DNA of 64,000 nt from Sinonovacula constricta (taxonomy: Eukaryota > Mollusca > Bivalvia > Cardiida > Solecurtidae). Numbering within the stretch: the first letter of the stretch is position 1; each line of letters opens with the position of its first letter. The position numbers were made by a program, and so were the translations under genes. Under the pieces are notes generated by a model. It was given only the letters and a program-made list of their open reading frames with translations, searched no databases and was not told the DNA's origin. This document shows, one piece after another, positions 14,701-63,766 of the stretch. The stretch covers positions 25,636,694 through 25,700,693 of the forward strand of contig CM017563.1 of NCBI GenBank assembly GCA_007844125.1, in the 5' to 3' direction.

Positions 14701-15113
14701 TGGCCGCAGAAAAACAATAAGAGGCGGCCACAGACAAACAATAAGAGGCGGCCGCAGACAAACAGTAAGAGGCGACTATGGCCACAAACAAACAGTAAGA
14801 GGCGACCATGGCCACAGACAAACAGTAAGAGGCGACCATGGCCACATACAAACAGTAAGAGGCGACCATAGCCACATACAAACAGTAGGAGGCGACCATA
14901 GCCACAGACAAACAATAAGAGGCGACCATGGCCACAGACAAACAACAAGAGGCGACCACAGCCACACAATAGGAAGCGACCATGGCCACAAACAAACAGT
15001 AAGAGGCGACCATGGCCACAGACAAACAGTAAGAGGCGACCATAGCCACATACAAACAGTAAGAGGCGACCATGGCCACAAACAAACAGTAAGAGGCGAC
15101 CATGGTCACAGAC

Positions 15114-22188: not shown

Positions 22189-22278
22189 TTATCTGTTTAT
22201 TGCTGGTGCTTCGGTCTTGTGTGTTCGTTCCCAGTCGATCTGTTTCTGTCTCTCTTTCTGGCGGATGATCTCAGCTTC
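22189..22278 (-). CDS. Downstream cassette exon 6: C-terminal tail and stop
   Basis: Acceptor ATGTTCCAG, then 29 codons and TAA. The tail is charged (EAEIIRQKERQKQIDWERTH) and continues the coiled coil. It has the same 90-base length as the exon at 47165-47076, but only about 11 of 29 residues match. Confidence 0.8.
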   Translation of the reverse strand, partial: EAEIIRQKERQKQIDWERTHKTEAPAINR

Positions 22279-25200
22279 CTGGAACATAAGGTGGTTGTGG
22301 GCTTTATAACGATTGTTCTTGTAGTGGTTTGGGTGGTAATGACATGAGTTAGTGATGATAGTGGTGATGATAAAGGTTGTGAGGATGGCGATGATGATTG
22401 ATGGCAAAGAGGAAAGAGGGTGTCTGTTTTCGAGAAAATGCTGTTGCCAGTTTACAATCACTAAGCTCCTTCCACCCCCACTCTCGCCCCAATCGCGTTG
22501 CTTCCAGTCCCTTTCGTGCTCAGTGGTTCTTTTTTAGATATATGAATGAGGATCTTGTACCCCTATTAATGACTGGATGTCGCCACAATGGCCATGATTA
22601 TTTAGATGGAAAAGGACCATCCATCCTCAAACAGCGATACTGATAATGGCTGGTAGTGGTTGTGGTGGTGATTATAACAAAGAAATCGAGAATAGCATGA
22701 TGCTGCTGCGTGTAGGTTGATGACAATAGTTATTTTGTCATATGTTTTAACAGCATAACAAGGCATACAAAGTAATAGAGAAAATGGTGGCCGGCAATCA
22801 TCAGCACCATTCGGTTGCTTTGTTTACAAGTAAGTACTGTGGCGTGAAAAATGATTTTATGTGGATACATGTACATGTATAGTCCAGTCGAATTCGGAAT
22901 ATTTTCAAATATTTGTGAGCGAGGATAACAAATTAAGAGCAATATTTCACGCACTGATCAAAAATCACTGCATACCAACAATGTTAAACGGGACTTGATA
23001 AAAGCTTTTAAGAATGGTGTTGCAATTTCATTTATAACAACAGTGCAATAAGGTATGTTAACAGCTTAACATTTTAATCTCTTGACCGATCTTGATAATG
23101 TGTAGCTTTGACAAACACAATGGATAATTAAATAAACGTGCAGAGGACAATGAACAATTAGAGGTGACAAACGTCTGAACATAATGAGAGATTCCAGCTT
23201 TATAAACAGGGGATAAACACACTGTAAACAGGATCAGACTGACTGTGAATGTATTCAAGAACACATCCCAAATAAGAAAGCATTTTTATGACAAACAGTC
23301 TAACTTTTTGTTATGGAAAACCGAGTGGTTATTTTTTTTTGTAAATGATTAAACGGATGACCCCTCAGCTACGACGTTAAATCGACAAGAAACCCCATTT
23401 TATTTTGATTTATTCGGATGTCGAAAATAGGGATTGTAGGTACCCAGAACTTTGTTTTCCTAGTCGCCTATAAGCAACAACAACAAAAACAACACAACAA
23501 CGTTTAATCTACCAGTTACACTGTCGCTTTGACTACAGTCACGCACCTGTTGCTTCATCTTGGTGACGAGGAACTGGACTTGTTCCTGCATACGGTCGAG
23601 GCGATGAATGTTCGAGTCCTTGTTGTTCTCCAGACACAGAGCCCTCTGTGTTGGAAAGAAGTCAAAACAGTTCCGCCGCAACTGTACAAAAAATTATAAT
23701 TTAACATTTGAAATAATACACAGCGACACAATTATGGTATGATAATCTAAATGTAAACTTTTGCTACGACAAGGTTAATTGGTTCATAGCAGATACCCCA
23801 TCTAGACAGCATGTGACTGGGGTAAAAAAACTGATCTCGATCTACACGAGTTGTCATTGCCTGTTCACCAGTGTACAGGCAGGCAAAGACAGTTACATGA
23901 CTGTTACCTCCAGTATATTACATGAAGATCAACAATTAAAAGGTTCAAGCACAGTAAAATGGAGATTAACAGCTTAAAGGTTCAAGCCTAGTAAAATGGA
24001 GATTAACAGCCTAAAGGTTCAAGCCTAGTAAAATGGAGATCAACAATTAAAAGGTTCAAGCCTAGTAAAATGGAGATCAACAGCTAAAAGGTTCAAGCCT
24101 AGTAATATGGAGATCCACAGCCTAAAGGTTCAAGCCTAGTAAAATGGAGATCAACAGCTTAAAGGTTCAAGCCTAGTAAAATGGAGATTAACAGCTTAAA
24201 GGTTCAAGCCTTGTAAAATGGAAATCAACAGCTTAAAGGTTCAAGCCTTGTAAAATGGAGATCAACAGCTTAAAGGTTCAAGCCTAGTAAAATGGAGATC
24301 AACAGCTTAAAGGTTCAAGCCTAGTAAAATGGAGATCAACAGCTTAAAGGTTCAAGCCTAGTAAAATGGAGATCAACAGCTTAAAGGTTCAAGCCTAGTA
24401 AAATGGAGATTAACAGCTTAAAGGTTCAAGCCTAGTGAAATGGAGATCAACAGCTTAAAGGTTCAAGCCTAGTAAAATGGAGATTAACAGCTTAAAGGTT
24501 CAAGCCTAGTAAAATGGAGATCAACAGCTTAAAGGTTCAAGCCTAGTAAAATGGAGATTAACAGCTTAAAGGTTCAAGCCTAGTAAAATGGAGATCAACA
24601 GCTTAAAGGTTCAAGCCTAGTAAAATGGAGATTAACAGCTTAAAGGTTCAAGCATAGTAAAATAGAGATTAACAGCCTAAAGGTCCAAGCCTAGTAAAAT
24701 GGAGATTAACAGCCTAAAGGTTCAAGCCTAGGAAAATGGAGATTAACAGCTTAAAGGTTCAAGCCTAGTAAAATGGAGATTAACAGCCTAAAGGTTCAAG
24801 CCTAGTAAAATGGAGATTAACAGCTTAAAGGTTCAAGCCTAGTAAAATGGAGATCAAAAGCTTAACGGTTCAAGCCTAGTAAAATAGAGATCAACAGCTT
24901 AAAGGTTCAAGCATAATAAAATAGAGATCAAAAGCTTAAAGGTTCAAGCATAGTAAAATAGAGATCAAGAGCTTAAAGGTTCAAGCAAAGTAAATAGAGA
25001 TCAAGAGCTTAAAGGTTCAAGCAAAGTAAATAGAGATCAAGAGCTTAAAAGTTCAAGCCTAGTAAAATGGAGATCAACAGCTAAAAGGTTCAAGCCTAGT
25101 AAAATGGAGATTAACAGCCTAAAGGTTCAAGCATAATAAAATAGAGATCAAAAGCTTAAAGGTTCAAGCATAGTAAAATAGAGATCAAGAGCTTAAAGGT

Positions 25201-28200
25201 TCAAGCAAAGTAAATAGAGATCAATAGCTTAAAGGTTCAAGCATAATAATATTGAGATCCACAGCAAAAAATTTCAAGCATAGTAAAATGGAGATCAACA
25301 CCTAAAAGGTTCAAGTAGAGTTAATTGGAGAACCACAGCAAAAAAGGTTCAAGCAAAGTAAAATGGAGATCCACAGCTAAAAGGTTCAAGCATAGTTTAA
25401 TGGAGATCCACAGCAAGAAGGTTAAAGCAGCGTAAAATGGAGATCCACAGCTACAAGGTTCAAGCAGCGTAAAATGGAGATCCACAGCTAAAAGGTTTAA
25501 GCAGCGTAAAATGGAGATCCACAGCAAGAAGGTTCAAGCAGCGTAAAATGGAGATCAACAGATTAAAGGTTCAAGCAGCGTAAAATGGAGATCCACAGCA
25601 AGAAGGTTCAAGCAGCGTAAAATGGAGATCCACAGCTAAAAGGTTCAAGCATAGTTAAATGGAGATCCACAGCTAAAAGGTTCAAGCAGCGTAAAATGGA
25701 GATCCACAGCTAAAGGTTCAAGCAGCGTAAAATGGAGATCCACAGCTAAAAGGTTCAAGCAGCGTAAAATGGAGATCCACCGCTAAAAGGTTCAAGCAGA
25801 GTACAAGAGACTGGTGTTTGGACTAGAGCTCCTTTTATCATGATTTCATGGCATACCTTGATTTATGTTGTTTTTTTCTTATGTAAATATAGCGTAAAAC
25901 AGATTTCCTCCAATATTGTAACATATATATGTATAAAAAAGGTGAAAAGTACGCACCATCTTATAGACAAACATCTCTAGGGACGAGTAGTCGTTGGGCC
26001 GAGTCTTGTCCAAATGGATAAAGAAGAAGAGATATGCCCAATGATTGTGTTCTCGCTGTACGTGATGGGTGAATCCCTGTGAAATATAACACATAATATA
26101 CAATATTATTAATTTGGTGTTTTAATATCGGACCAATTATTGACTGCGTACTGTAGTATTCGATTGAGCCAGCAGAGACACTGACGAAATGACAGGATTA
26201 CGATTAAGTCACCAAAAGAAACAACACTTTTCTTAATTAAATGCACGAATATCAAACAGTTATATTTTCAATTTTAACAAGACTTTTGATATCACATCAT
26301 TTAAATAAAGACGACAATTACGGGGAATGAAGAGCGCCCTTTGAAGTTGCTGATAAACCATCCACTTGTTCCTATTCTCTATTTGGCATTTGACTTCGTA
26401 CTGACATCGTTGTATCAGACAATCAAATCGTCTTTGGCCTTTGACTTCGTACTGACATAATGTTTTCATTGAACATCATAACAAACCATTATTACCTGAA
26501 CAGATCTCGCAAAATGCTGTTTATTGATGTCCTACACCTGTTTGCAAAGGGAACCATAACAGCATAATCGTCATTTCAAACATGTATTTCCTATCTGAGC
26601 CACGCTGCACAGTTGGTTATTTTAAAACTAAGAAAACCACGTGACTATGTTTTAGTTTATCCACGTCATCCGCTGTGACTTGTCTATTTTCAGCAGGAAT
26701 CCCACTCGTTGTTATTTACAGATTGGAAAAGAAGGAACATATAAGAGTTGATTAACGAGTTTTGCTGCGCTAAAATTGAGATTTTGTTGAAAATCGTCAA
26801 AGCTTAGACTAAAGTATGTATGTACAAATACCACAAAGACAGGTCAGATATTGTTACATATATTAAGTACAAAGTGTCGGATACCACCACTAATAAAGAT
26901 TGGTAGGCATAAAGAAATTGTAGTTATATGCATGAGGTAGACAGAAACGACGACAGGATATATAATTATGCAACATTGCCGTGTTCTTGCTGCACAAAAT
27001 AGATAAACTAAACGGAAGGGATTCAGTGGACGTTTATTAGATGGAGTGTTATGATTTGATGCCAAAAGAGAAACCACAATGTTTACATTGTAATGCTTTA
27101 AACATGTTTGTATTGTTATTGTTCCATCTTACAACACGAACCGGTTTCACAATTCGCATTTTTTGGCTTTATACTGCTAGAGACGAGCATATAGCAGTTA
27201 TTTATATTTAAGGTCTTCTGCTATTACCGATGTGGCAAATCTCTAACAGTTATCTTGGTGGAAAACACAAAAGAGGCTAAAGGACCGCCAGCTGTGTGAA
27301 GTTACCTCTGGAAAGATTTAACCGTTTCATTTATAGTAACTGTATTGGATTTTTATTTTAACAGTTCACCTGATTTTGTTGCTTTTCTGTGAAACAGTTT
27401 CAATATTTTTAAACATGCATTTTCAGCATATAATTATATAACCTAGATTTAATTAGTCTACAAATTAAACCCTTAGTTATGTTGATGCTGCTAAAGATAC
27501 AAGATTATAGTTGTGACTCCTTTTAAATGGCGTAAAATGGCATGAGCATGAGCAAAGGGGTTAACGGGTAGAAAAGCAAAGGCTGCATGGTTCTAATCTG
27601 AGTAAATGGGCAATGAACGCGGAGTTATGATGGAAATGCGTTATTTTCCTCTTTCGCACAAAGTTGTAGCTCGATACTTATATGCAGATAAAAGCAGGAC
27701 ATAAAATATAAAAATGGCCATGTGTTTTAATTATTGTACTACTTACATTGCCGTGCCTCTCGAAATCATAACTTTCCCTACTGCAGATGAAGCACACACT
27801 CTGCATGTCCTTGTCAACAGCCCACTGTAAGTACAAACAGTTCAATCATTAGTGGTCCTAATGTCAATTGGTCAGTAAGCATGCCAAGTTGCTTAACTTA
27901 TTATGTTATACTAACGGAAGGTGTTAAAAGTATAAAAAACAACATTATAAAGAAAGTGTGAGTGTGTGCCATGATGGCTACAGGAAGGGACTCAGTCTGT
28001 AAGTTTAAGAACCGAGTGTCAGGAAAGGACGACGTCAGAAAGCTTGAGAAATGACAGTTAGAAAGGGACGACGTCAGGAAGTTTGAGAACTGAGCGTCAG
28101 GAAGGGACGACGTCAGGAAGTTTGAGAAATGACAGTTAGGAAGGGACACCATCAAAAAGTTTAAGAACTGAGTGTCAGGAAGGGAAGCCGTCAGGAAGTT

Positions 28201-31200
28201 TAGAAAGTGAGTGTCAGGAAGGGACGACGTCAGGAAGTTTAAGAACTGAGTGTCAGGAAGGGACGACGTCAGGAAGTTTAAGAACTGAGTGTCAGGAAGG
28301 GACGCCGTCAGGAAGTTTAAGAACTGAGTGTCAGGAAGGGACGACGTCAGGAAGTTTAAGAACTGAGTGTCAGGAAGGGACGACGTCAGGAAGTTTAAGA
28401 ACTGAGTGTCAGGAAGGGACGACGTCAGGAAGTTTAAGAACTGATGTCAGGAAGGGACGACGTCAGGAAGTTTAAGAACTGAGCGTCAGGATATGGACGA
28501 CTTCTGGAAGTTTAAGAACTGAGTGTCAGGAAGGGACGACGTCTGGAAGTTTAAGAACTGAGTGTCAGGAAGGGACGACGTCAGGAAGTTTAAGAACTGA
28601 TGTCAGGAAGGGACGACGTCAGGAAGTTTAAGAACTGAGCGTCAGGATATGGACGACTTCTGGAAGTTTAAGAACTGAGTGTCAGGAAGGGACGACGTCA
28701 GGAAGTTTAAGAACTGATGTCAGGAAGGGACGACGTCAGGAAGTTTAAGAACTGAGCGTCAGGATATGGACGACTTCTGGAAGTTTAAGAACTGAGTGTC
28801 AGGAAGGGACGACGTCAGGAAGTTTAAGAACTGAGTGTCAGGAAGGGACGACGTCTGGAAGTTTAAGAACTGAGTGTCAGGAAGGGACGACGTCAGGAAA
28901 GTTAAGAACTGAGCGTCAGGAAGGGATGCCGTCTGGAAGTTTAAGAACTGAGTGTCAGGAAGGGACGACGTCTGGAAGTTTAAGAACTGAGTGTCAGGAA
29001 GGGACGACGTCAGGAAAGTTAAGAACTGAGTGTCAGGAAGGGACGACGTCAGGAAAGTTTAAGAACTGAGTGTCAGGAAGGGACGACGTCAGAAAGTTTA
29101 AGAACTGAGCGTCAGGAAAGGACGACGTCTGGAAGTTTAAGAACTGAGTGTCAGGAAAGGACGACGTCAGGAAGTTTAAGAACTGTGTGTCAGGAAGGGA
29201 CGCCGTCAGAAAGTTTAAGAAATGGGTGTCAGGAAGGGACGACGTCAGGAAGTTTAAGAACTGATGTCAGGAAGGGACGCCGTCAGGAAGTTTAAGAACT
29301 GAGTGTCAGGAAGGGACGACGTCAGGAAGTTTAAGAACTGAGTGTCAGGAAGGGACAACGTCTGGAAGTTTAAGAACTGTGTGTCAGGAAGGGATGCCGT
29401 CAGGAAGTTTAAGAACTGAGTTTCAGGAAGGGACGACGTCAGGAAGTTTAAGAACTGATGTCAGGAAGGGACGCCGTCAGGAAGTTTAAAAAGTGAGTGT
29501 CAGGAAGGGACGACGTCAGGAAGTTTAAGAACTGAGTGTCAGGAAGGGATGCCGTCAGGAAGTTTAAGAACTGAGTTTCAGGAAGGGACGACGTCAGGAA
29601 GTTTAAGAACTGAGTGTCAGGATGGGACGCCGTCAGGAAGTTTAACAACTGAGTGTCAGGAAGGGACGACGTCAGGAAGTTTAAGAACTGAGCGTCAGGA
29701 AGGGACGACGTCTGGAAGTTTAAGAACTGAGTGTCAGGAAGGGACGACGTCAGGAAGTTTAAGAACTGAGTGTCAGGAAGGGACGACGTCAGGAAGTTTA
29801 AGAACTGTGTGTCAGGAAGGGATGCCGTCAGGAAGTTTAAGAACTGAGTTTCAGGAAGGGACGACGTCAGGAAGTTTAAGAACTGATGTCAGGAAGGGAC
29901 GCCGTCAGGAAGTTTAAAAAGTGAGTGTCAGGAAGGGACGACGTCAGGAAGTTTAAGAACTGATGTCAGGAAGGGACGACATCAGGAAGTTGAAGAACTG
30001 AGTGTCAGGAAGGGACGACGTCAGGAAGTTTAAGAACTGAGCGTCAGGAAGGGACGACGTCTGGAAGTTTAAGAACTGAGCGCCAGGAAGGGACGACGTC
30101 AGGAAGTTTAAAAACTGATGCCAGGAAGGGACGACGTATGGAAGTTTAAGAACTGAGTGTCAGGAAGGGAAGACGTCAGGAAGTTTAAGAACTGAGTGTC
30201 AGGAAGGGATGCCGTCAGGAAGTTTAAGAACTGAGTGTCAAGAAGGGACGACGTCAGGAAGTGTAAGAACTGAGCGTCAGGAAGGGACGACGTCAGGAAG
30301 CTTGAGATATGGCAGTTAAGAAGGGACACAATCAAAAAGTTTAAGAAATTCCAGTTAGGAAGGGACGCCGACATAAAGTTTAATAAAATGTCCTTACCCT
30401 TACAATCCATCAAAGTGTTTTTTGCACAAAAAAAAATTCAAAGCGATAAAATACTTCATCACATTTTACTTTCAGCAAGATCTGTCAACAGTTCTGAAAC
30501 GTTTTTACTGGCTTAACAATGTACCAGTTATCGGCAATATTACTTTATCAGTTATATCCAACAAAGTCATCGATTTGGCACGTTTGAGTCGCATAACAGC
30601 TAAGTTAATAACTTTCTGTCTGATTGATTCTGTTAGTCAATTATTTATGTTATGATAAGGTCTTAACTTAAGGAGTGGCGGGCTAAAAGCTTATGTGATC
30701 GTTTGGTACCTTAGCAACATTTAGAAAAAAAAATGCCAAAACAACTGCTCAAGAGAAAATAAGTTACGTTAAGAGCCCGAAATAATGTTCTAACTGCCCC
30801 ATTACTGGAACTATAATTTGAGTTGTTGCCTTGGCTTTTCGGAGCGGTGAGTGTGTCGACCTTATTGCAATAATCATGGCATTAATAATGGCTAAATTGA
30901 ATAAACACATTAGGTGTCAATCGTGTTAACCATGTTAATTGTTAATCTAAGAGATGAGTAATTTAGACAAGGGCTTAGGCTGCGTTTGTTTCTGCTACCC
31001 CTTAATTTACAGTTTTTTGTTTTTTAGTTACTTTGGCATTCCTGAATGAAGATAACGTGTAGGAAGCGGCAATACAATAAAAATGTAGATAAGAGAAGAG
31101 CACATAAACGATACTATCCAGTACCTACAAACAGTTTTATTACTAGACCTAGTAACGATTTTGACAATATCTGTTACCTTAGAATCTCTGAGTTGAGAGA

Positions 31201-33478: not shown

Positions 33479-33559
33479 CTGCAATAGTTTAGTCGGTATG
33501 TGAATTGTAACAACGCAGTTCAGGCTGTCATGTCGACGTGTATACATTTTAATAATCTT

Positions 33560-33642
33560 TAATATTCGTAAGGCAAACAGAATCGGCGAATAAAAGGAAA
33601 ATATTGCTAGGTCCAGTATGGCCATTAACATCAACGACTCAC
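33560..33642 (-). pseudogene. Decayed partial copy of the S5 exon
   Basis: After an acceptor-like TATTGCAG at 33643, about 28 codons read ESLMLMAILDLAIFSFYSPI and then LFAL, clearly related to the S5 exon 85 bases downstream on the minus strand. Similarity stops in the middle of the S5 exon and there is no donor in the expected place. It is a local duplication relic that kept the phase-1 acceptor. Confidence 0.8.
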
Positions 33643-33734
33643 CTGCAATAGAGCGAAGATATTAGTAAAATGATTTTTGCCAATAACAAGCCAACAGTAT
33701 GAGCATATTATAACGAATAGTATATCGTCGTCCA

Positions 33735-34030
33735 ACAATGATAATAACACAATGTCGATGACGACACAATGTAAATGACACAATGTACATGACGACACAA
33801 TGTCAATGATGACACAATGTAATGATGACACAATGTACATGACGACACAATGTAAATGATGACACAATGTCAATGATGACACAATGTAAATGATGACACA
33901 ATGTAAATGATGACACAATGTACATGACGACACAATGTAAATGATGACACAATGTAAATAATGACACAATGTACATGACGAACAATGTCAATGACGACAC
34001 AATGTACATGACGACACAATGTCAATGATA
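33735..34030. repeat. ~17-bp minisatellite
   Basis: About 17 imperfect copies of ACACAATGTAAATGATG, with variants GTCAATGA and GTACATGACG. Confidence 0.9.
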
Positions 34031-34094
34031 CAACTTTGTCACTGTTGTTTGGTAAGATAACGACAGACACACTCTAAGTTGAGCTTAGTGTTCA

Positions 34095-34302
34095 AAAGAG
34101 CACAGGTGCACTTATGAGGTGCCCAGGGACATTATACTGATACCGACGAGTCAGGCGTAAAGCTGTCCCCTTAGTCCCGAGCGTTAGGAGGGACGCCACT
34201 ACTACCAACTTTAAAGTCTTTGGTTTGACCCGGCCGGTGTTCGAACCTACGACCTCCCGATCCGCAAGCCGACGCTCTACTACCTGAGCTATTGCGGCCG
34301 GT
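34095..34302 (-). mobile_element. tRNA-derived SINE
   Basis: On the minus strand the head reads GCAATAGCTCAGGTAGTAGA, then CGTCGGCTTGCGGATCGGGA and GGTTCGAACACC: good box A and box B of a tRNA-like promoter. It is followed by a tail of about 130 bases containing GTATCAGTATAATGTCCCTG. The acceptor stem does not pair as in a true tRNA and the element continues well past it. Confidence 0.75.
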
Positions 34303-34517
34303 CCTGATTTATAGATTAATCACTGTTGCTGATGAGTTACAAGTCAGCGACTCTAACCCTCGGCCACTCCTGCAAGGTTTGGTGTAGGTACATGAACACG
34401 CGGGTCCGCAATTCTTATTTAAACTTAAATCATGGCGTCACTATCGAGTCAGTGTTTGGCTCCTGACTGACGTATACAATGTCATTGACCATGTTTTCGA
34501 ATAATACGTGTGTATAT

Positions 34518-35365: not shown

Positions 35366-35455
<90 letters not shown>
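35366..35455. repeat. TA dinucleotide microsatellite
   Basis: About 45 uninterrupted TA units directly at the right end of the hAT-like element. Confidence 0.95.
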
Positions 35456-35458
<3 letters not shown>

Positions 35459-40465: not shown

Positions 40466-40649
40466 GCCTCTTTTTCTTTCCTATTTGCATCCTTGCAACC
40501 TGAAAAAAAAAGATATTATTTTATTAAACTATTTGACTAAAAAAATACAGAATAATTGTGTTGACATCTTTTCTGTCACTCTTTGTGTTGAAAACATGTA
40601 ATTGAACAGCTTTTTTTAAAGATTTGTAGAAAATATACCATCTTCAATA

Positions 40650-47075: not shown

Positions 47076-47165
47076 TTATTTTCTGGAATCCTCTTCCTTC
47101 TTCTTGTGAGTGTTCTCCCACTCCTCCTGCCTCTTCTTCTCCTTCTCTCTCGTTGACTGGGCCTC
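47076..47165 (-). CDS. Upstream cassette last exon: charged tail and stop
   Basis: Acceptor TTTTGTAG, 29 codons and TAA. The tail is highly charged (EKEKKRQEEWENTHKKKEED), continuing the coiled coil. Confidence 0.82.
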   Translation of the reverse strand, partial: EAQSTREKEKKRQEEWENTHKKKEEDSRK

Positions 47166-53100: not shown

Positions 53101-56100
53101 GTACACATGGAACATGTCTAAAATAATGAGTTGTTAAATAAGAATGGACCTACCAACTACAAAGTCTTCATTATGCTATTTAACAGTAAAGATATATATC
53201 CAGACTAGGCAAAAGGATAAAGGCAAAAAAGTAGAATAAATACATTTTACAGTGATCAGAAATCACATGATAAAACACATGATTCCTTCAAATAACTGAA
53301 TTTTCTCAAATGAATTATATTTTGCTTTTAAGAGAAAGAGACATTCTTAGTACTGAAACTATAAGTAAGTGAACAATAACAATTCTAGTGTGACATTTCA
53401 TTTTGCCAAAAGAAGTACAAGAACACCAATAAAAACATCTACACACATGCTTTAAGTGTTCAACACTGCTGAAGTTACTGGACAAGCTTCCTTTATAATT
53501 CACTCCACCACACCACAGCAAACAGTTCAAATCTGGCTTGAATGCATCTAATCAAGACCATATATACCTGATGCATTCCAGGACTAGAAGATTTGTATTT
53601 CAATTTAACCCTTGTTTAACCATTATTTCATTATGTGTTATTTAAAGCAGCCTTTGTCACCACAGAGAATAAATTCAGCAAGCACAGAAAGGTCAAGGCT
53701 ATCGAAGAGTTAGTAGTATATCAAAACATGCAAATTTTAGTCTAAATACTTGTACACAGCAGTATTTGTACATTTAGCCTGATATTTGTACACAGCAGTA
53801 TTTGTACATTTAGCCTGATACTTGTATACAGCAGTATTTGTACATTTAATCTGATACTTGTATACAGCAGTATTTGTACATTTAACCTGATACTTGCACA
53901 CAGCAGTATTTGTACATTTAACCTGATACTTGTATACAGCAGTATTTGTACATTTAATCTGATACTTGTACACAGCAGTATTTGTACATTTAACCTGATA
54001 CTTGTATACAGCAGTATTTGTACATTTAACCTGATACTTGTATATAGCAGTATTTGTACATTTAACCTGATACTTGTATACAGCAGTATTTGTACATTTA
54101 GCCTGATACTTGTACACAGCAGTATTTGTACATTTAGCCTGATACTTGTACACAGCAGTATTTGTACACTTAGCCTGATACTTGTACACAGCAGTATTTG
54201 TACATTTAACCTGATACTTGTATACAGCAGTATTTGTACATTTTACCTAATACTTGTACACAGCAGTATTTGTACATTTAGCCTGATACTTGTACACAGC
54301 AGTATTTGTACATTTAGCCTGATACTTGTACACAGCAGTATTTGTACACTTAGCCTGATACTTGTACACAGCAGTATTTGTACATTTAACCTGATACTTG
54401 TATACAGCAGTATTTGTACATTTAACCTGATACTTGTATGCAGCCGTATTTGTACATTTAACCTGATACTTGTACACAGCAGTATTTGTACATTTAACCT
54501 GGTACTTGTATACAGCAGTATTTGTACATTTAATCTGATACTTGTATACAGCAGTATATGTACATTTAACCTGATACTTGTATACAGCAGTATTTGTACA
54601 TTTAACCTGATACTTGTATACAGCAGTATTTGTACATTTAACCTGATACTTGTACACAGCAATATTTGTACATTTAACCTGATACTTGCACACAGCAGTA
54701 TTTGTACATTTAACCTGATACTTGTACACAGCAGTATTTGTACATTTAACCTGATACTTGTACACAGCAGTATTTGTACATTTAGCCTGATACTTGTATA
54801 CAGCAGTATTTGTACATTTAACCTGATACTTGCACACAGCAGTTTTTGTACATTTAACCTGATACTTGCACACAGCAGTATTTGTACATTTAACCTGATA
54901 CTTGTATACAGCAGTATTTGTACATTTAGCCTGATACTTGTACACAGCAATATTTGTACATTTAACCTGATACTTGCACACAGCAGTATTTGTACATTTA
55001 GCCTGATACTTGTATACAGCAGTATTTGTACATTTAACCTGATACTTGTATACAGCAGTATTTGTACATTTAACCTGATACTTGTATACAGCAGTATTTG
55101 TACATATAACCTGATACTTGTATACAGCAGTATTTGTACATTTAATCTGATACTTGTATACAGCAGTAAGCAGTATTTGTACATTTAACCTGATACTTGT
55201 ATACAGCAGTATTTGTACATTTAACCTGATACTTGTATACAGCAGTATTTGTACATATAACCTGATACTTGTATACAGCAGTATTTGTACATTTAACCTG
55301 ATACTTGTATACAGCAGTATTTGTACATTTAACCTGATACTTGTACACAGCAGTATTTGTACATTTAACCTGATATGTGTAAACTATACAATAATGATTT
55401 AAGTTTTTATTTCATTGTTTTATGTGGCTAGTATGTCTGTGTAGTACAACTATTATTTAATGGATAAATTTGATTTTTAAAGTAGAAACAACAGTTTAGT
55501 TAAGCTTAACACTTTCTGTGAGAATTATCATATAATTGTACTTAAAATGCAGCCATCAGACTGGAATATGTATGCTTGTGGAAAAAAAAACGAAAAAAAA
55601 CCACTTTAGAAATCGGATAAATCAGAGAAGTCATAAGGATCAGGTAAAACTGCACCATTTAGTGATAGTGATTAGTGAATTAGAGAAACAGACTCAAAAC
55701 TGAAGAAATTTAGTTTCTTCACCACTTAACTATCAAAAAATTACATTGTAAGTACTGTCCGCCAGTCCATGATGAAGTATAGAGATGAGACATTGGCCAA
55801 TCGTACTGCAGTGTCGGCCATTGGTGGTACTCCAGAACCAGTCACGATAGAACGCAAACAGGATCAGCGCATAAATATAGAATATAGCCAGACCAAGTAA
55901 GGCTACTAACAATAGTGACTTTCCTGTAAAGGGAGGGAGAAAAAATATAAACAACTATTACATAATATAAAAAAAAGATGGCAGCACCTAGTAATAATAA
56001 TAATAATGACTTTCCTGTAATGTGAGAGAAAGTATTATATAAATATCACATCCTGGGAAGGGTGATAGCACATATTTTCAACCTGAGACTGGCAATGTTG

Positions 56101-59100
56101 ACTGATGTGTAAATGAAGAAGTAAACAGGTGAAGGGTGGATTTGCTTGTACGAATGATATAAGAATGAGAACCTGGAAAATTGTGTAGGAAACAGATGCA
56201 TGTATGGTAAATAATAAAAAACAGAAAAACTGGTATCCCAATAGACCTGTATGTTAAGCAGGTGTATATGACAACCATGGTACATTGTAACAATTAAGTT
56301 CAGTATTCTTGATTATAAATTTGTTTGCAATACTCTTCTTGAAATAAAACATCAATTTCTAGAAATAGAACCATTATGCAGTGCTTTAATATTAAAATTG
56401 ACTTAAATGTTTTTAAAAAATAAATAAATACATATTTTTATATTTTTTCCCCATGAAATTATAGGCTACATAGAGTACTTTCACATTCAACATTTACAAA
56501 AGACCTTATACTGCAGTCTATATCAATACTTTTTTTTATCAAAAAACAAGAAGAAATATAACCAAGGGAATGTAGAATCTTGCCTACCGTTAGTGGTGAC
56601 AGCCTGAATAACACGTTTCAGGAGCTGATTCATCTCTGTGATGTGCAGCAAGTGAAACGCGAAGAAGTAACCATGGGTAACGGTCCCTGCGATAGAACAT
56701 CCCAGGAACAGCTGCAAATATATACAGAATATATATAATATTGGAACACAATAGAACATCCCAGGAACAGCTGCAAATATATACAGAATATATATAATAT
56801 TGGAACACAATAGAACAACCCAGGAACAACTGCAAATATATACAGAATATATATAATATTCGAACACAATAGAACAACCCAGCAACAACTGCAAATATAT
56901 ACAGAATATATATAATATTGGAACACAATAGAACAACCCAGGAACAACTGCAAATATATACAGAATATATATAATATTGGAACACAATAGAACAACCCAG
57001 GAACAACTGCAAATATATACAGAATATATATAATATTCGAACACAATAGAACAACCCAGCAACAACTGCAAATATATACAGAATATATATAATATTGGAA
57101 CACAATAGAACAACCCAGCAACAACTGCAAATATATACAGAGTATATCAAATATTGGAACAAAAACAGCATCAGGAGATTCAGTCTAATGTAAATGTTTA
57201 TTTATGAACTAACCCCTCATATATCTGGGTAAAAGGTACAATTGTATGAAACATTTGTAAATTGTAGAATTGTCAAATGGCATTTATATGGACTAACAAC
57301 CAACTACAATTGTGATAACAATGTGGCATATGTATGGATAAAAGTGTTTATGTGTTTGTACTTTCATTACTGATAATGCTTACATTAACCACAAATTAAA
57401 CAAGCATTTTCATTTTTTCCTGTAATGTTAATGATCTTGAACTAAGGTATTTTAATGAGATTTAAACTTAAAAATATTTTGTTAAAATGAGCAAATATGG
57501 GAATAAAACCTGCTTGTAGCTGATAGGGGTATAACACCTGCTGGTAGCTTATTTGGGCTTAACCTATGTAAAACCTGGTGATAGGGGTGTAAAACAAGCT
57601 GGTAGTGGTGTAAAACCGGCTGTAAGGGAGTAAAACCTGCTGATAAAGGTGTAAAACCAGCAGGTAGGACTGTAACACCTGCTGATAGGGGTGTAGCACC
57701 TGCTGACAGGGATGTGAGACTGGCTGATAGGGTGTATAACACCTGCTTATAGGGTGTAGCACCTGCTGATAGGGGTGTAAAACCTGTTATATATAATAGT
57801 AAAAGAGTTCATCTAAGATGCCTAACTCAAAAATTGCTGTTGTGATACATACCACATAGTAGATGGTCTTGAATCCATATGCCTTCACCTCTAGGTGGGA
57901 CTCTCCTTTCTTCTCACTCCATGCTCGTTCATCTTCTTCCTCATCATCATCAGCCTTCCTGTAGTGCATGGCAAAAAGGACGATACTAGTATTAACAAAA
58001 TCATGTTCAGAAGGATAGCTTATAAAGTCACCCTAAATCACATACAATAAGGTAGCACTGTAGTCATGTCGTAGAAAGTAGAGGCAAACAGACCCAAATA
58101 ACAAAACAAGAGGGCCATGATGGCCCTTATGGCTCACCTGATGACAAGCTTTTAGCAGGCTCAAATCTGGCATCAAGTACGGTAATTATTTACTATAGAA
58201 ATCTTTGGTGAAGACTGGACCATTAGTGAAGCCACTGGGTTGATATCATTTTCTAGAATTTTACCAAGTAACCTTCTGAATCCACATGACCCACTTCAAA
58301 ACATATGTAAGATTTCATACTGGCAAACATTCTGGCCAAGTTTGATGAAGACTGGGCCATCAATGTGTCTTCTAAGTGTTTTCGCAAGGTTTTTCTAACA
58401 TGTGACCTAGTGACCTCTTTTTTGACCCCACATGAACCAATAACGAACTCGTCCCAGATTTCATGCAAACATTCTGACCAAGTTTGGTGGAGATTGGGCT
58501 AGAAATGTAGTCTCTAGTGTGTTCACAATCTTTTTCTAAGATTTGACATAGTGACCTACTTATTGACCCTATGTGACTCAGTTATGAACTCATCCAAGAT
58601 TTCATGAAGGCAAACATTCTGATCAAGTTTGGTGGAGATTGGGCCATAAATGGGGCCTCGAGTGTGTTTACAAGCTTTTGCTAAGATTTGACCTAGTGAC
58701 CTACTTATTGACTCCACATGACCTAGTTATGAACTTATCCAAGATTTAATGCAGGTAAACATTCTGATCAAGTTTGGTGAAGATTGGTAATACATGAGGT
58801 CTTTAGTGTGTTCACAAGCTTTTTATAAAATTTGACCTACTGACCTACTTTTTGACACCACGTGACCCAGTTACGAGCTCATCTAAAATTTGATGCAGAC
58901 AAACATTCTGACCAAGTTTGGTGAAGATTGGGATATAAATGTGGTCTCTAGTGTGTTCACAAGTTTTTCCTAAAATTTGACCTCTTGACCTATTTTTGAC
59001 CCCAGGTGATCCAATAATGAACTCATCCAAGATTTCATGCAGACAAACATTCTGATCAGGTGTGATGAATAGTGTGTTCACAAGCTAAATTGTTGATGCC

Positions 59101-62100
59101 AGTCGAAAGGGTATCAGAAAAGCTCACCTTCAAACAAATGTGAATGTTACTTTTTAAAAAAACAAACATGTTGATTTTAAGGAAGGCTTCCCATAATGAA
59201 CTTTGGCCAATATCGACACATTTGGTTCGCGACGGAAGCTTTCATTTTTGCCCGATGAAAAACGTAATTTTACCAAATAACACTAAATTAATTGTTAATG
59301 TTTAGGTTAAATGTTAAAATGGTTCAAAGTATGTCATAGAGGACAAAAATTTTGACATATATCACGTTTAGAGAGAAAATATTTTCAAAAAATGCGAAGT
59401 TCTTGTCATGTGACGTTTTGGGAATTTCCTGTTTGCAAACCGAAACAACAAAAAATCCAATGCCACAAGAACGTGATTTTCGAGGAAGATTTAAGTCACG
59501 TAAGCGTCCCACAATACGGAAACAACGCAGTACAATGTTATTAATGGAACACAATTATGCAAATGTGTATTTGTGCGATGGAGATACCTGTACAAACCCG
59601 AATTTTATACTTTGTCATTTTCTATTCATGGTCTAGTGGTTAAGACATTGGACTCCTGATCGGAGGGTCCTGGGTTCGAACCCCGAAACTAACCTCATGA
59701 TGTTAGTCTTTGAGCAAGACTATTTACTGCACGCTGCTCCAGGTATTCTGTACCTGAGTACTGGTTCTACCCAGAAAGTGGACAGTTGAGAGGGATTAAT
59801 ATAAGTTAAAAAACTAGTTAACCAATCAACTATAAATAAATAGGTTTAAAATATTTGAGCAGTAATTTTGGACAAAATTTTAGTTGAAATCCAATCATAT
59901 GGAAAGTAGTGTATGTTTTTTATAAAAGTTTGTATAATTGAATGTTAGTGACTGTGTTGTAGCTTTTGTCATAATGTACAATTTAGATTAGGTGGTTGTT
60001 TTTAGCTGAAGACTTGCCTGCTGTTCAGTGAGATGCACATTCAATTTACCACAGAAAAAAAATAAGGAGACCAATATTTGCATACCTTTAATCGCTTTGC
60101 ATCAGCAGATTAATAAGACTGGTAATTTTCTTTACTGATACTTATTTGTTATTGTTATTAAGGTATCAATCTTAACAACAATCTGTACAATAGTGAAACC
60201 ATGACCACACCAACCTGAAGATACTGGTGATGTCTGCAAATGAAGGAAAGGTAGGTCTGTTGGAGATGATGTAGGAGAAGAAGATTCCCAGAGACAATAT
60301 GTTGTGTATTCCTCCCAGGATATAGATGCTCAGGTAACTGTTTTCATACCTCCATTCTGGAATGTACCTGTGTCAATAATTACATACATTGTAATGTAGA
60401 ATATTCTTAGAGACAATATGTTGGGTATCTATCTGACCCAGGGATATAGATGGACAGATAACTTTTGTTATACCTTCATTCTGGCATGAGCTTTTGTTAA
60501 CAATCTAAGTAACATACCTTCTCATTCCATTTACCATTATTTTTCACAATATCAAAATATTACAACTATTGACCAAGAAGCACTAGTCATTTATGTTTCA
60601 TGCTTTGTGATTTCTGTCATCAATATTTCAAAATAGAATTCATTAACAGAAAACTTCAGCTTAGTAAAAGAGATTGTGAAAGCATCTCTGCTGGCTCAGT
60701 CTGCAGACAGTTTGTATTCTCTGCTGGCTCAGTCAGTAGACAGTTTGTATTCTCTGCTGGCTCAGTCAGTAGACAGTTTGTATTCTCTGCTGGCTCAGTC
60801 TGTAGACAGTTTGTATTCTCTGCTGGCTCAGTCTGTAGACAGTTTGTATTCTCTGCTATACAGTTTGTATTCTCTGCTGGCTCAGTCAGTAGACAGTTTG
60901 TATTCTCTACTGGCTCAGTCTGTAGACAGTTTGTATTCTCTGCTGGCTCAGTCAGTAGACAGTTTGTATTCTCTGCTGGCTCAGTCTGTAGACAGTTTGT
61001 ATTCTCTGCTGGCTCAGTCAGTAGACAGTTTGTATTCTCTGCTGGCTCAGTCTGTAGACAGTTTGTATTATCTACTGGCTCAGTCAGTAAACAGTTTGTA
61101 TTCTAGACAGTTTGTATTCTCTACTGGCTCAGTCTGTAGAGTTTGTATACTCTGTTGGCTCATTCAGTAAAATGTTTGTATTCTCTACTGGCTCAATCTG
61201 TAGACAGTTTGTACTCTCTGCTTGCTCAGTCTGTAGACAGTTTGTATTCTCTGTTGGCTCATTCAGTGAAATGTTTGTATTTTTACTGGCTCAATCTGTA
61301 GACAGTTTGTATTCTCTGCTGGCTCAATCTGTAGACAGTTTGTATTCTCTACTGGCTCAGTCTGTAGACAGTTTGTATTCTCTGTTTGCTCATTCAGTAA
61401 AATGTTTGTATTCTCTACTGGCTCAATCTGTAGACAGTTTATATTCTCTGCTGGCTCAGTCTGTGGACAGTTTGTATTATCTGCTGGCTCAATCTGTAGA
61501 CAGTTTGTATTCTCTGCTGGCTCAGTCTGTAGACAGTTTGTATTCTCTGTTGCCACAGTCTGTAGACAGTTTGTATTCTCTGTTGGCTCATTCAGTAAAA
61601 TGTTTGTATTATCTACTGGCTCAATCTGTAGACAGTTTGTATTCTCTGCTGGCTCAGTCTGTAGACAGTTTGTATTCTCTACTGGCTCAGTCAGTAGACA
61701 GTATGTATTCTCTGCTGGCTCGGTCTGCAGACAGTTTGTATTCTCTACTGGCTCAGTCTGTAGACAGTTTGTATTCTCTGTTGGCTCAATCTGTAGACAG
61801 TTTTATTTTCTGCTGGCTCAGTCTGTAGACAGTTTGTACTCTCTGCTGCCTCAATCTGTAGACAGTTTGTCTACTCTTCTGCCTCAATCTGTAGACAGTT
61901 TGCCTTTCTCTGCTGCCTCAGTCTGTAGACAGTTTGTATTCTCTACTACCTCAATCTGTAGACAGTTTATATTCTCTGCTGCCTCAGTCTGTAGACAGTT
62001 TGTATTCTCTGCAGCCTCAGTCTGTAGACAGTTTGTATTCTCTACTACCTCAATCTGTAGACAGTTTATATTCTCTGCTGCCTCAGTCTGTAGACAGTTT

Positions 62101-63766
62101 GTATTCTCTACTACCTCAATCTGTAGACAGTTTATATTCTCTGCTGCCTCAGTCTGTAGACAGTTTATATTCTCTGCTGCCTCAGTCTGTAGACAGTTGG
62201 TATTCACAGCGAAGGGTCTCATGCTTAAATCCTGGCCTTGCTTCATAGGTTTCACTCTTCATCAATAGTCATAAGAAAAATATGATAAAAGCCTCTTAGT
62301 ATTGTTTTATGTCTCAGCACATTGTTAAAGCCACTGCCTAGTCAATTACATACCTGGGTCCTGTGTCCCCTCCCTGCCAGCACACCATGACAACGATCGC
62401 TATTGCTAGGGTGAACAGCATCACTAAGTAGTTCAAAGGCACCCTAAAAGACATAACAGCTGTGTGAACTAGATTCATAAAGCATTCATCATACACATAC
62501 CACATATCATTAAACTGCTGCTTAATGTGGCCTTACATACTATCTTACTCCTTTTATTTATATTTATTATATTTAACCCAAATCGAACATGCTTTTATTT
62601 GCAATCTCAGCATGAAATAGCAGCAAAAAAGTAGTTGTAGTGAATGTTACAGTGACTCCTAGTCCTTGTGTCTATTTCTCCCCAATGGACCAAGGGTATA
62701 TGCCTAGCAAGGACAAGAAGGTGCACGATATGGATTATTTGTTTGTTTGTTTTATGGGTTTATCGTCCCACCAACAGTATTTCAGTTATCTGGAGAGGCT
62801 GTCCACTTGTAGCAGATATAGTGCTGCCTTCACTGTGTATAGCATGCCATAAACACCTGGCATGATACCACACCCAGCCACATTATCCTGACACTGGGCC
62901 AACCAGTCGTGGAAACACCCTTATATTTGCTTGAGCATTAGCAAGGGACCTATTCCACTACCATTTTTTAATGACTTTGCTATGTCACAGCCCATGATCG
63001 AACCTGGGGCCTCCCGTACCTGGAGACGACACTCTACCGATTGCGCTACCAGGTCCGGTCGATATGGATTGTGATCACCCATAACCACTGAAGTGGGCTT
63101 CATTGTACATGCTTACAAAACTTTTGACCTGCATATATTATGCTCCAACATTTTTTAAAGTCGAACCAGGGCCTCATTTCCCATAACTCTAACTTGGAAT
63201 GCGAAAACTTGATTTTATTAGAAGATACACTGTAGATAAATAGGACAGGATTTGTGATGCATTATTTTAATCTGTGCACTGATTACTGAGATAAATGACT
63301 GACAACAGTTGCAAGCAGAACTTTACCCTGTATGGATATGCTGCAATATTTTCTATGTCAGGCCCATATTTCTAATAAACAATTAAACTTGATTAGATCA
63401 GTTAGTGTGATATCTGTGAAGTTTCTTTCTTTTATCTGGTTATTGAGCTTTAAGACATGATGTACTTGGTAGCAAAGTTTTAACCTGAGTGTCATGGCAA
63501 CGCTGACGTTCAAGTAAGTGAAAAAAGCTAGAACCAAATAGAACAAATGCAAGAATTGATTGCACTGGATTCAGATTTTTGAACCGACCGACTCACCAAG
63601 CATTAACGAGGAGTCTCCCTATAGGGTTGGCATGCACCCGTCGCTGGTACTTGATGTCCTTGATGATGTCATTGGACCAGTCCATAAAGTCTCGGATCTT
63701 ATTACTGGGTGAGGACCGATCCACCTCATACTTGAACTTCTCCTTGATCTCCTCACGTAACACTTT
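47076..63766 (-). CDS. IP3-receptor-like channel, transmembrane and C-terminal exons (11 exons, 5' part beyond window)
   Basis: Exons: 63766-63597, 62443-62354, 60367-60215, 57958-57853, 56711-56588, 55923-55745, 50813-50664, 49846-49769, 49203-49084, 48659-48525, 47165-47076. All junctions agree in phase and give 464 codons plus stop. Order: pre-S1 (RRVHANPIGRLL), S1, S2, an acidic linker (KADDDEEEDERAW), an S4-like segment with the S4-S5 linker LLKRVIQAVTTNG (compare LLNVIKSVTRNG of IP3 receptors), S5, S6, CFIC..H..H linker domain, coiled coil. IP3 receptors are tetrameric ER calcium-release channels of about 2,700 residues; the ligand-binding part must lie beyond 64 kb. Oddities: no GGGVGD filter, and no obvious S3. 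A missed phase-2 exon between 60215 and 57958 cannot be excluded. Confidence 0.85.
47282..48185. repeat. Degenerate ~33-bp intronic minisatellite
   Basis: Repeated GGTTGCTAAGGAGACATAGA with GATGACAT, in irregular spacing with many indels, filling the intron between the last two exons. A short SINE-body fragment (AACAGTATTTCAGTTATCTG) is embedded near 48005. Confidence 0.85.
48525..48659 (-). CDS. Upstream cassette exon: FFP..RAL segment
   Basis: Acceptor TTTGTAG, donor CAG|GTTAGT, 45 codons. EFFPMNRALSLENEEDTNEQ is followed by a heptad-like HLQEQIDYLVTKLKEQ. Confidence 0.88.
49084..49203 (-). CDS. Upstream cassette exon: linker helix with zinc-site histidines
   Basis: Acceptor TCTACAG, donor ATG|GTAAGA, 40 codons. 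FLKHVKQEHNKWAYLFFF matches EEHIKEEHNMWHYLCF of IP3 receptors. Confidence 0.9.
49769..49846 (-). CDS. Upstream cassette exon: CFIC zinc-site exon
   Basis: Acceptor TCAG, donor GGG|GTAAGA, 26 codons. DKDMMSVCFICSRESYDFER supplies the two Cys of the linker-domain zinc site. Confidence 0.9.
50205..50390 (-). mobile_element. tRNA-derived SINE (family shared with 51972-52170)
   Basis: Minus-strand head TGGCCGAGCAATTGCTTACT and GGGTTCAAGTCCC (boxes A and B), then a tail with CCAGTGGTTTTATCCAGACT and GGGGTCTTCCTCCACCA. The same tail ends the copy at 51972. Lies in an intron. Confidence 0.75.
50664..50813 (-). CDS. Upstream cassette exon: post-pore segment and S6
   Basis: Acceptor GCATTGTAG, donor AAG|GTAAGT, 50 codons in phase 0. 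Begins QFQDQMGPSF, then S6 TTIGLNIIFGIIVDTFSQLR, identical over S6 to the downstream copy. Confidence 0.92.
50814..51971. other. Intron sequence, nothing recognised
   Basis: AT-rich part of the large S5-S6 intron. I looked here for a phase-0 mini-exon encoding a Gly-rich filter and saw none. Confidence 0.4.
51972..52170 (-). mobile_element. tRNA-derived SINE, second copy of the 50205 family
   Basis: Minus-strand GGGTTCAAGTCCTGTTTGGG with a head near 52160. The tail carries CCAGTGGTTCTACCCAGGCA and GGGGTCTTCCTCCACCA. More diverged at the head than the other copy. Confidence 0.75.
52171..53734. other. Intron sequence, nothing recognised
   Basis: Rest of the large S5-S6 intron before the 36-bp array. 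No exon or repeat seen. Confidence 0.4.
53735..55378. repeat. Intronic minisatellite, 36-bp unit, about 45 copies
   Basis: Unit CTGATACTTGTATACAGCAG plus TATTTGTACATTTAAC, very homogeneous. Minus-strand frames up to 313 codons (12-residue repeats such as YKYQVKCTNTAV) arise only because 36 is divisible by three. Lies between the S5 and S6 exons. Confidence 0.95.
55745..55923 (-). CDS. Upstream cassette exon: S5 and pore loop
   Basis: Acceptor TTTACAG, phase 1, 179 bases, donor AAT|GTAATT. S5 SLLLVALLGLAIFYIYALIL; pore region CLISILHHGLADSTYN. HGL aligns with HGLRSGGGVGD of IP3 receptors, but the Gly-rich filter is replaced. Confidence 0.92.
56588..56711 (-). CDS. Exon: S4-like helix and S4-S5 linker
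   Basis: Acceptor TATATTTGCAG, 124 bases, donor AACG|GTAGGC. LFLGCSIAGTVTHGYFFAFH, then HITEMNQLLKRVIQAVTTN; the second half matches LVYREETLLNVIKSVTRNG of IP3 receptors. Its acceptor is the founder of the adjacent repeat array. Confidence 0.9.
56700..57150. repeat. 59/60-bp minisatellite carrying the 3' splice site and exon start, 8 copies
   Basis: Each plus-strand unit contains CCCAGGAACAACTGCAAATA then TATACAGAATATATATAATA and TTGGAACACAATAGAACA. On the minus strand this gives TTCTGTATATATTTGCAG followed by the first about 22 bases of the exon at 56711 (TTGTTCCTGGGTTGTTCTAT). Copies start near 56712, 56772, 56830, 56889, 56948, 57007, 57066 and 57125. All three minus-strand frames are open through the array. 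Confidence 0.92.
57500..57790. repeat. ~21-bp intronic minisatellite
   Basis: About 13 imperfect copies of CTGATAGGGGTGTAAAACCTG, with variable length. Lies in the intron just 3' of the acidic-linker exon. Confidence 0.85.
57853..57958 (-). CDS. Exon: acidic linker before the S4-like helix
   Basis: Acceptor GCACTACAG, 106 bases, donor GTG|GTATGT. Encodes KADDDEEEDERAWSEKKGES, then HLEVKAYGFKTIYYV. The acidic run is an unusual loop compared with vertebrate IP3 receptors. Confidence 0.88.
58105..59120. repeat. Bivalve-type tandem repeat with ~147-bp TGACCTA units, about 6 copies
   Basis: Starts AACAAGAGGGCCATGATGGC and ends with AAAAGCTCACC. Units repeat CAAACATTCTGACCAAGTTT, GGTGAAGATTGGGCC, GTGTGTTCACAAGCTTTTTC and TTTGACCTAGTGACCTAC. 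Such arrays are dispersed in many mollusc genomes as part of mobile elements; that statement is from general knowledge. Lies in the intron between 57958 and 60215. Confidence 0.8.
59121..59618. other. Intron sequence, nothing recognised
   Basis: Contains a plus-strand frame (59352-59636) that runs into the SINE and shows no domain. No exon of the channel is seen. Confidence 0.35.
59620..59800 (+). mobile_element. tRNA-derived SINE
   Basis: Head with box A TGGTCTAGTGGTTAAGACAT and box B GGGTTCGAACCCC around an anticodon-like loop CTCCTGATCGGAG. Then a body with GCAAGACTATTTACTGCACG, CTGCTCCAGGTATTC and GGTTCTACCCAGAAAG. The tRNA-like part is well preserved, but the 5' end does not pair with the 3' side. 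Confidence 0.8.
60215..60367 (-). CDS. Exon: S2 region
   Basis: Acceptor TGACACAG, 153 bases, donor TTCAG|GTTGGT. YIPEWRYENSYLSIYILGGI, then a hydrophobic HNILSLGIFFSYIISN. Phase 2 at both ends; it joins the acidic-linker exon through a split Arg codon. Confidence 0.88.
60398..60492 (-). pseudogene. Decayed partial copy of the S2 exon
   Basis: Minus-strand GCCAGAATGAAGGTAT, TCCATCTATATCCCTGGG and CCAACATATTGTCTCTAAGA align along the first two-thirds of the live S2 exon 30 bases away. TGG has become TGA (in-frame stop), small indels shift the frame, and the acceptor is lost. Confidence 0.8.
60690..62205. repeat. Intronic minisatellite, 33-bp unit, about 45 copies
   Basis: Unit CTCTGCTGGCTCAGTCTGTA plus GACAGTTTGTATT. 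After 61840 the subtype changes to CTGCCTCAGTCTGTAGACAG. Open frames (11-residue SLLAQSVDSLY) extend to 288 codons because 33 is divisible by three. Lies between the S1 and S2 exons. Confidence 0.95.
62354..62443 (-). CDS. Exon: S1
   Basis: Acceptor GTCTTTTAG, 90 bases, donor CCCAG|GTATGT. VPLNYLVMLFTLAIAIVVMV, then CWQGGDTGP, phase 2 at both ends. Confidence 0.9.
62745..63062 (-). mobile_element. tRNA-derived SINE, near full length
   Basis: Minus-strand head ACCTGGTAGCGCAATCGGTA and CCCCAGGTTCGATC supply boxes A and B. A body of about 240 bases includes GTGTCAGGATAATGTGGCTG and GATAACTGAAATACTGTTGG. The body is shared with 2345-2505 and a short piece near 48005. Confidence 0.8.
63063..63596. 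other. Intron sequence, nothing recognised
   Basis: Intron between the pre-S1 and S1 exons. No repeat or exon beyond the SINE before it. Confidence 0.4.
63597..63766 (-). CDS. Exon: cytosolic segment before S1
   Basis: Acceptor CCATGACAG, 170 bases in phase 0, donor GCTTG|GTGAGT. KVLREEIKEKFKYEVDRSSP, then DIIKDIKYQRRVHANPIGRL. The end aligns with the KKLRAQPVLYW region just before S1 of IP3 receptors. Earlier exons lie beyond 64 kb. Confidence 0.88.

Follow-up and report, generated by a model that had tools for sequence, protein, structure and literature searches.

The bivalve Sinonovacula constricta carries, in the window analysed here (64,000 nucleotides; C9:25636694-25700693, C9 being contig CM017563.1, of a 1.22 Gb genome in 177 contigs), the 3' portion of an IP3 receptor/ryanodine receptor (IP3R/RyR) superfamily gene, encoded on the minus strand. 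One set of front exons is followed by two homologous sets of six exons, cassettes A and B, each encoding the channel from helix S5 to the stop codon. As judged from the genomic sequence, these are likely two alternative 3'-terminal cassettes of a single gene, spliced from a common donor at position 56588 of the window, and they would go back to an old pair of versions of cassette exon 1, each with private exons 2 to 6; we assign this reading a probability of roughly 0.6. The gene probably makes two channels, which would have the same body and different pores.

The window contains five front exons, u1 to u5 (63766-56588), which encode the region before S1 up to the S4-S5 linker, and further front exons continue upstream of the window. 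Exon u1 (63597..63766, minus strand like all exons below; 91% to the Mercenaria protein P0043) encodes the cytoplasmic part of the shared body before S1, u2 (62354..62443) the S1 region, u3 (60215..60367) the S2 region, and u4 (57853..57958) an acidic loop and the start of S3, the last three all matching P0043. Exon u5 (56588..56711; 87% to P0043) covers S3-S4 and the S4-S5 linker, and ends in the common phase-1 donor 56588. The helix assignments of u1 to u5 are presumed from the IP3R. Cassette A (55923-47076) follows u5 in frame and encodes S5, the pore, S6, a zinc domain, a presumed coiled coil and a stop. Cassette B (33478-22189) is a second such set on the same strand, and starts 13.6 kb downstream of the stop of A. 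In A and B, respectively, exon 1 (S5 and pore helix) lies at 55745..55923 and 33300..33478, exon 2 (pore loop and S6) at 50664..50813 and 31178..31327, exon 3 (first half of the zinc domain) at 49769..49846 and 27747..27824, exon 4 (its second half) at 49084..49203 and 25957..26076, exon 5 (FFP motif and presumed coiled coil) at 48525..48659 and 23547..23681, and exon 6 (tail and stop) at 47076..47165 and 22189..22278. These features rest on their splice borders and on the comparison of A with B, and B exon 1 in addition on the match to P0043 (55/60).

The exons of both cassettes measure 179, 150, 78, 120, 135 and 90 bases. AG stands at each of the 12 acceptors and GT at each of the 10 internal donors, and a TAA terminates the last exon of A and of B. 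The donor 56588 is in phase 1, and its glycine codon is completed with either cassette (GGA or GGC). An earlier note on this DNA had described this layout, and its coordinates for A, B and the donor are correct to the base; the exon borders also bear out the paired lengths, the phase-1 entry that completes a glycine, and a donor in frame with either cassette. Tandem homologous exons of the same phase and length characterize mutually exclusive exons, and A and B are arranged in this way. If A were joined to B in one transcript, the stop codon of A would precede B. The first ATTAAA occurs 177 nt past the stop of A and 63 nt past that of B, and the first AATAAA 1614 nt and 1970 nt past them; such poly(A)-type hexamers are frequent in AT-rich DNA.

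B has no front half of its own that we could find. A genome search with cassette A returned 22 matches, eight on C9, 12 on C11 and two on C7, and all eight on C9 are exons of A or B. C11 has four loci, each with one cassette seen and with its own u1, u3 and u5 matches, and C7 has canonical IP3R sequence twice. The search with u1 to u5 returned 17 matches, namely the five exons of the window and 12 on C11, none of them assignable to B; both searches score the best first-look candidates only (32 for cassette A, 18 for u1 to u5), and very weak sets could escape. Residues 900-2597 of P0043 (2601 aa) map in order over about 114 kb of C9 into A, and residues 1-899 have no match in the 163 kb of C9 examined. 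Beyond A, the protein matches just the B exons and a decayed copy of exon 1 before B1, with nothing between 47094 and 33643, nor below 22216, at E 0.01. Own upstream S1-S4 exons, which would mark a separate tandem gene, were thus found for B neither by this mapping nor by the genome search with u1 to u5, in agreement with the earlier observation that no such exons lie between the cassettes.

The two cassettes are old. They share 165 of 250 residues (43/60, 37/50, 21/26, 30/40, 23/45 and 12/30 for exons 1 to 6, the stop counted). The tail is the least similar part (11 of 29 residues, stop excluded) and S6 and the zinc domain are highly similar, a pattern that the earlier note had already read from the letters. 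It had also proposed comparing nonsynonymous and synonymous change (dN/dS) between the cassettes. The proportion of synonymous differences (pS) is 0.81, i.e. saturated, and that of nonsynonymous differences (pN) is lower, 0.22, without frame breaks in this genome (no stops, no indels). A and B agree at 208 of 250 second codon positions and at 106 of 250 third positions (Fisher p 1.5e-21). When half of the A/B differences were placed randomly, the frame stayed free of stops in 20 of 5000 runs, and in 1 of 5000 when all were placed. At the DNA level (E 1e-3), the A stretch matches the B stretch on exons 2-4 only. Among 66 columns invariant across 23 relatives, A keeps 65 and B keeps 62; this set comprises 23 of the 36 tree rows (22 bivalve rows and the metagenome protein P0001), and leaves out A, B, the row Mya_short, two fragments and eight non-bivalves. 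By these codon and residue patterns, the pair is neither a chance resemblance nor a young copy, and both cassettes are under purifying selection. Gene conversion was considered as the source of the high similarity in S6 and rejected, as the third-position identity of A2 and B2 (0.66) resembles that between A2 and the C11 genes (0.57-0.66); for B2 and the four C11 genes it is 0.54-0.57.

Comparison with relatives points to exon 1 as the original alternative part. The trees comprise 34 proteins picked by name from 162, plus A and B, and the exon identity tables 15 of these 36 rows. The database proteins are 90% cluster representatives, so that isoforms which differ at the 3' end alone would not show; the clusters of P0043 and P0045 have 19 and 11 members. 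Exon 1 of Mercenaria P0043 shares 55/60 residues with B1 and 43/60 with A1, and this B1-like exon stands behind the same S4-S5 linker. A B1-type exon therefore belongs behind u5 in a full-length channel. For exons 2-6, A is instead the closer one: P0043 shares 43/50, 23/26, 33/40, 34/45 and 16/28 with A, and 38/50, 20/26, 29/40, 24/45 and 13/28 with B. Mya arenaria has a full-length protein, P0045, and a short one, P0005 (248 aa), which come from contigs of equal size (58,022,990). Their exons 2, 4, 5 and 6 are identical (50/50, 40/40, 45/45, 28/28), and their exons 1 share only 38/59 residues. These two proteins are most simply read as two versions of exon 1 served by a single set of exons 2-6. 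The earlier note had asked for conservation of the layout in related bivalves: two exon-1 versions do recur in the Mya proteins, and the double six-exon layout was seen in the proteins of no relative.

Tree tests add limited resolution. In the exon-1 tree, A1 and B1 together are marginally rejected by the approximately unbiased test (p-AU 0.043, one of eight uncorrected tests on exon 1 and exons 2-6; the other seven gave 0.097 to 0.32), and the best tree groups B1 with Mercenaria at a modest support of 77/77. With exons 2-6, a sister relationship of A and B is not rejected (p-AU 0.296), nor is a grouping of B with Mercenaria P0048 (p-AU 0.28). The orthology of the Mya versions to A1 and B1 is not settled by these tests. 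A one-residue deletion in Mya P0005 and Dreissena P0046, and the motif LADS in A1 and Dreissena, hint at two old exon-1 classes; we do not claim them, as the best tree does not unite A1, Mya_short and Dreissena, and forcing them into one group costs 5.3 log units (p-AU 0.27). Two further protein pairs were rejected as isoforms: Dreissena P0046 and P0081 are 43-50% identical and are separate genes, and Sinanodonta P0047 and P0163 are two genes, 92% identical.

The alternative 3' ends suggested by the earlier note thus retain, as support, one front set, two intact cassettes, matching phase, purifying selection and the two Mya exon-1 versions. Alternative 3'-terminal cassettes would explain why B lacks front exons, has kept its phase and is under selection. 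In the nascent RNA, 56588 would be joined to A1 (55923), whose acceptor is closer and has the better pyrimidine tract, or alternatively to B1 (33478), with A skipped over 23 kb. The products would be two tetrameric channels that have the regulatory body in common and differ in pore and assembly tail. Because the exchanged block includes the coiled coil, each version may assemble mostly with its own kind. The origin would be an alternative S5/pore-helix exon pair before a single set of exons 2-6, as the two Mya proteins suggest; later, in this lineage, exons 2-6 would have been duplicated too, and each exon-1 version would have obtained its private 3' end. The versions were probably an exon-1 pair first, and the cassette layout a later form. 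For the fuller statement, that this is an IP3R/RyR member with splice-chosen, exchangeable pore-to-coiled-coil ends grown from an ancient S5/pore-helix exon pair, we see about even chances.

Several points weigh against alternative ends. The junction from 56588 to 33478 is a prediction from genomic DNA, and use of B requires skipping of the six exons of A together with its 3' end. The acceptor tract of B1 is unremarkable (0.55 of 22 nt). The pyrimidine tract of the A1 acceptor (0.86) is the richest of the 16 gene acceptors scored (that of u5 not counted), and A is therefore expected to dominate. The u5 donor has 6/9 consensus positions. Splice-site strength would thus fit, as weak evidence, A as the default and B as a regulated choice. 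Furthermore, B exons 2-6 evolve fast (end branch 0.97 versus 0.31 for A), and the exon-1 tree is mostly unresolved, with 12 of 13 inner branches open. The Mya protein P0005, a gene model, begins with 26 odd residues and lacks exon 3, and Mya backs an alternative exon 1, not a second full cassette. Finally, the six-exon double layout was seen in none of the relatives, which were compared at the protein level.

Part of this evidence would also follow from rate variation only. The whole cassette would then have been duplicated in this lineage, with exon 1 and exons 2-6 evolving unequally, and no ancient exon-1 pair would have existed. We regard this as possible, if somewhat doubtful, and it is compatible with alternative ends, since splicing to both cassettes could still occur. 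The tree tests leave room for it, as sisterhood of A and B is not rejected for exons 2-6 and the rejection for exon 1 is marginal and uncorrected. It accounts poorly for the two Mya exon-1 versions with identical exons 2, 4, 5 and 6, and for the joint position of B1 and Mercenaria in the best exon-1 tree, modest as its support is.

The main rival to a single gene with two ends is that B constitutes an independent short gene, driven by a promoter of its own and encoding a pore-only protein (S5-S6, zinc domain and coiled coil). Such a protein could start at the methionine that is the fifth residue of B exon 1 (GKSLM), and could join or poison full-length tetramers. The distance of B from the stop of A, its own stop and the early methionine agree with this, as do stand-alone proteins of about 250 aa from the same region in databases (Crassostrea, Saccostrea, Mya). 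A 3'-terminal RyR1 transcript from brain is said to exist in the older literature; a literature search returned no account of it. However, the oyster short proteins match full-length genes and were rejected as evidence for pore-only genes (P0003 shares 99.6% with P0061, from the same species, and P0002 shares 89% with P0060, from a congener), and the short Mya protein has four exons in common with a full-length one. B also retains the glycine-completing phase-1 acceptor and the residues GKS, which would be useless to such a protein. No upstream exon or start was identified, no dedicated search for a promoter or first exon having been made. Altogether, a pore-only gene appears unlikely. We find it more improbable still that B is the 3' remnant of a tandem whole-gene copy which lost its front and is dead or dying. 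Whole-gene second copies do occur in relatives, as Mercenaria P0048 and P0043 are on contigs of equal size, and the 92% identical Sinanodonta P0163 and P0047 have consecutive gene numbers and contigs of equal size. The fast evolution of B exons 2-6 and their unrejected grouping with P0048 would also suit a remnant. Nevertheless, frames and splice sites are intact despite saturated synonymous divergence, and B has kept 62/66 invariant columns. Its exon 1 is closer to P0043 (55/60) than to P0048 (43/60), which also disfavours B as the orthologue of P0048, and the mapping of P0043 revealed no front-exon relic between the cassettes. A dying relic fits these data badly.

The gene is IP3R-like in plan. 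Among solved proteins, a sequence search with A found IP3R2 as nearest (E 2.4e-32), followed by RyR2 (1.2e-22). Among the matches listed (120 of 162), full-length proteins of bivalves and gastropods come closest, the best with 80% over the query region, and farther ones are other lophotrochozoans and more distant animals. P0043 and P0045 contain the domains Ins145_P3_rec, MIR, RIH, RIH_assoc and Ion_trans, and lack the SPRY and RyR repeat domains that mark ryanodine receptors (at E 0.01). In the window gene, covered by the DNA matching P0043 900-2597, Ion_trans was detected with A and with B. It shares with IP3R/RyR the S5-S6 region, the GxxxDTF of S6, the zinc domain CFIC...H...EH (in both cassettes as CFICSRESYDF...H...EH) and a charged tail. 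It differs in its two 3' cassettes per body and in lacking the GGGxGD filter. This motif (GGGVGD/GGGIGD) is absent from the six frames of the 163 kb of C9 and of the four C11 loci, where an intron-split motif would escape; after splicing, the filter region is LADSTYNQFQDQMG in A and LVESPYETFSDLMD in B. Both canonical C7 IP3R loci of this genome read GGGIGD, and a filter-like motif occurs in 13 of the 208 proteins compared, many of them fragments. As IP3-contact residues we take TTGR/TTLR of the beta-domain and a set of R and K residues of the alpha-domain. Aligned with human ITPR2, the orthologue P0043 reads MRPV in place of the TTLR stretch, and in the alpha-domain RQKLMR is kept and YRK is replaced by SRK; this test covers orthologues only, and the distant animals aligned as references are no clean controls. 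Because the filter and, in the orthologues, part of the IP3 pocket are lacking, the gene is no IP3 receptor proper. The earlier label "IP3-receptor-like" therefore holds for superfamily membership and not for a classical IP3 receptor, and we place the gene in a divergent IP3R/RyR branch without the GGGxGD filter. A predicted structure of the relative P0001 (mean predicted local distance difference test 62.6, predicted template modelling score 0.35) was too poor to interpret.

With alternative last exons in general, one donor serves two 3' ends that each have a stop of their own. Unlike in ordinary cases, the ends of the window gene are homologous, have six exons each and encode the whole pore. 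A precedent is the NALCN channel with its mutually exclusive pore exons, the pairs 15a/15b and 31a/31b; in snail NALCN such pore exons are cDNA-proven (PMC3557258). There too, duplicated in-frame exons exchange a pore segment within one invertebrate gene; in NALCN, a single mid-gene exon swaps a filter residue (PMC3557258), whereas in the window gene everything from S5 to the stop is doubled and the 3' end is chosen as well. Within the same superfamily, the insect RyR has alternative homologous exons, described as a mutually exclusive exon in the second SPRY domain (PMC6026295). This is a single exon of a cytosolic domain, in contrast to a six-exon pore end. Such exons were not mapped in insect IP3Rs by the same study, which states that they cannot be dismissed there (PMC6026295). 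Among the open-licence literature matches listed, none concerned alternative pore cassettes in IP3R/RyR, and none concerned this mollusc family. The earlier note did not know of such cassettes in IP3R/RyR either. To our knowledge, pore diversity in IP3R/RyR is otherwise known from separate genes only.

If spliced as proposed, the gene would bring pore exchange into the IP3R/RyR superfamily, and would be a natural experiment on which pore parts can change under one regulatory body. It would also illustrate how one alternative exon might grow into an entire alternative end of a gene. Furthermore, two mollusc gene families are annotated in databases as IP3 receptor types 1-3, and their C9/C11 members are without the filter motif. 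Because of this lack, these members might not work as ordinary calcium-release channels.

Several exon copies and repeats occur around this gene. A decayed partial copy of exon 1 lies before A1 (55953..56014, minus strand), with a DNA score of 39 against A1 (best of 300 shuffles 28) and 24 against B1 (best shuffle 27). Another lies before B1 (33572..33642, minus strand), scoring 68 against B1, where the best of 300 shuffles reached 34, and 60 against A1 (best shuffle 30.5). The idea that the two are relics of one shared ancestral pair finds no support, as their mutual score (35) does not exceed that of shuffles (36.5) and the copy before A1 matches A1 only. The copy before B1 opens at 33642 with AG/GTGAGT, preceded by a pyrimidine tract as in a recursive splice site, which may be coincidence. 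A decayed copy of the 5' part of u3 lies directly upstream of u3 (60370-60487; score 95.5, best of 300 shuffles 28). Exon starts thus seem to have been duplicated repeatedly into the preceding intron of this gene, before u3, A1 and B1. Just upstream of u5, a 59-bp minisatellite (56692-57161, eight copies) carries in its units the u5 acceptor and the first exon bases, which creates a series of decoy acceptors.

A second homologous exon pair of the same gene is found upstream of the window (C9 25746120-25746221 and 25749739-25749840), with AG/GT borders and matches of 34 residues. These are candidate alternative exons of the cytosolic body, and would make alternative exons less exceptional in this gene. 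Mya P0045 is slightly nearer to the exon at 25746120-25746221 (21 versus 19 identities), and the one at 25749739-25749840 is nearer in Mercenaria (26 versus 22) and Mactra (28 versus 22).

Elsewhere in the genome, the C11 sister genes lie at 3.18, 3.86, 19.08 and 21.13 Mb and form two near-identical pairs, and the canonical IP3R sequence on C7 lies at 43.10 and 53.49 Mb in opposite orientation. The C11 pairs and the C7 duplicates would be either recent segmental duplications or uncollapsed haplotypes. In the window itself, scans for tRNA genes and Rfam families gave no matches. Downstream of cassette B, an 8.8-kb satellite with a 30-bp unit and a strong AT skew occupies 10367-19164, and a single open frame of 553 aa on the minus strand (4873-3215) encodes an amino-acid permease (Pfam AA_permease_2, E 5.6e-57).

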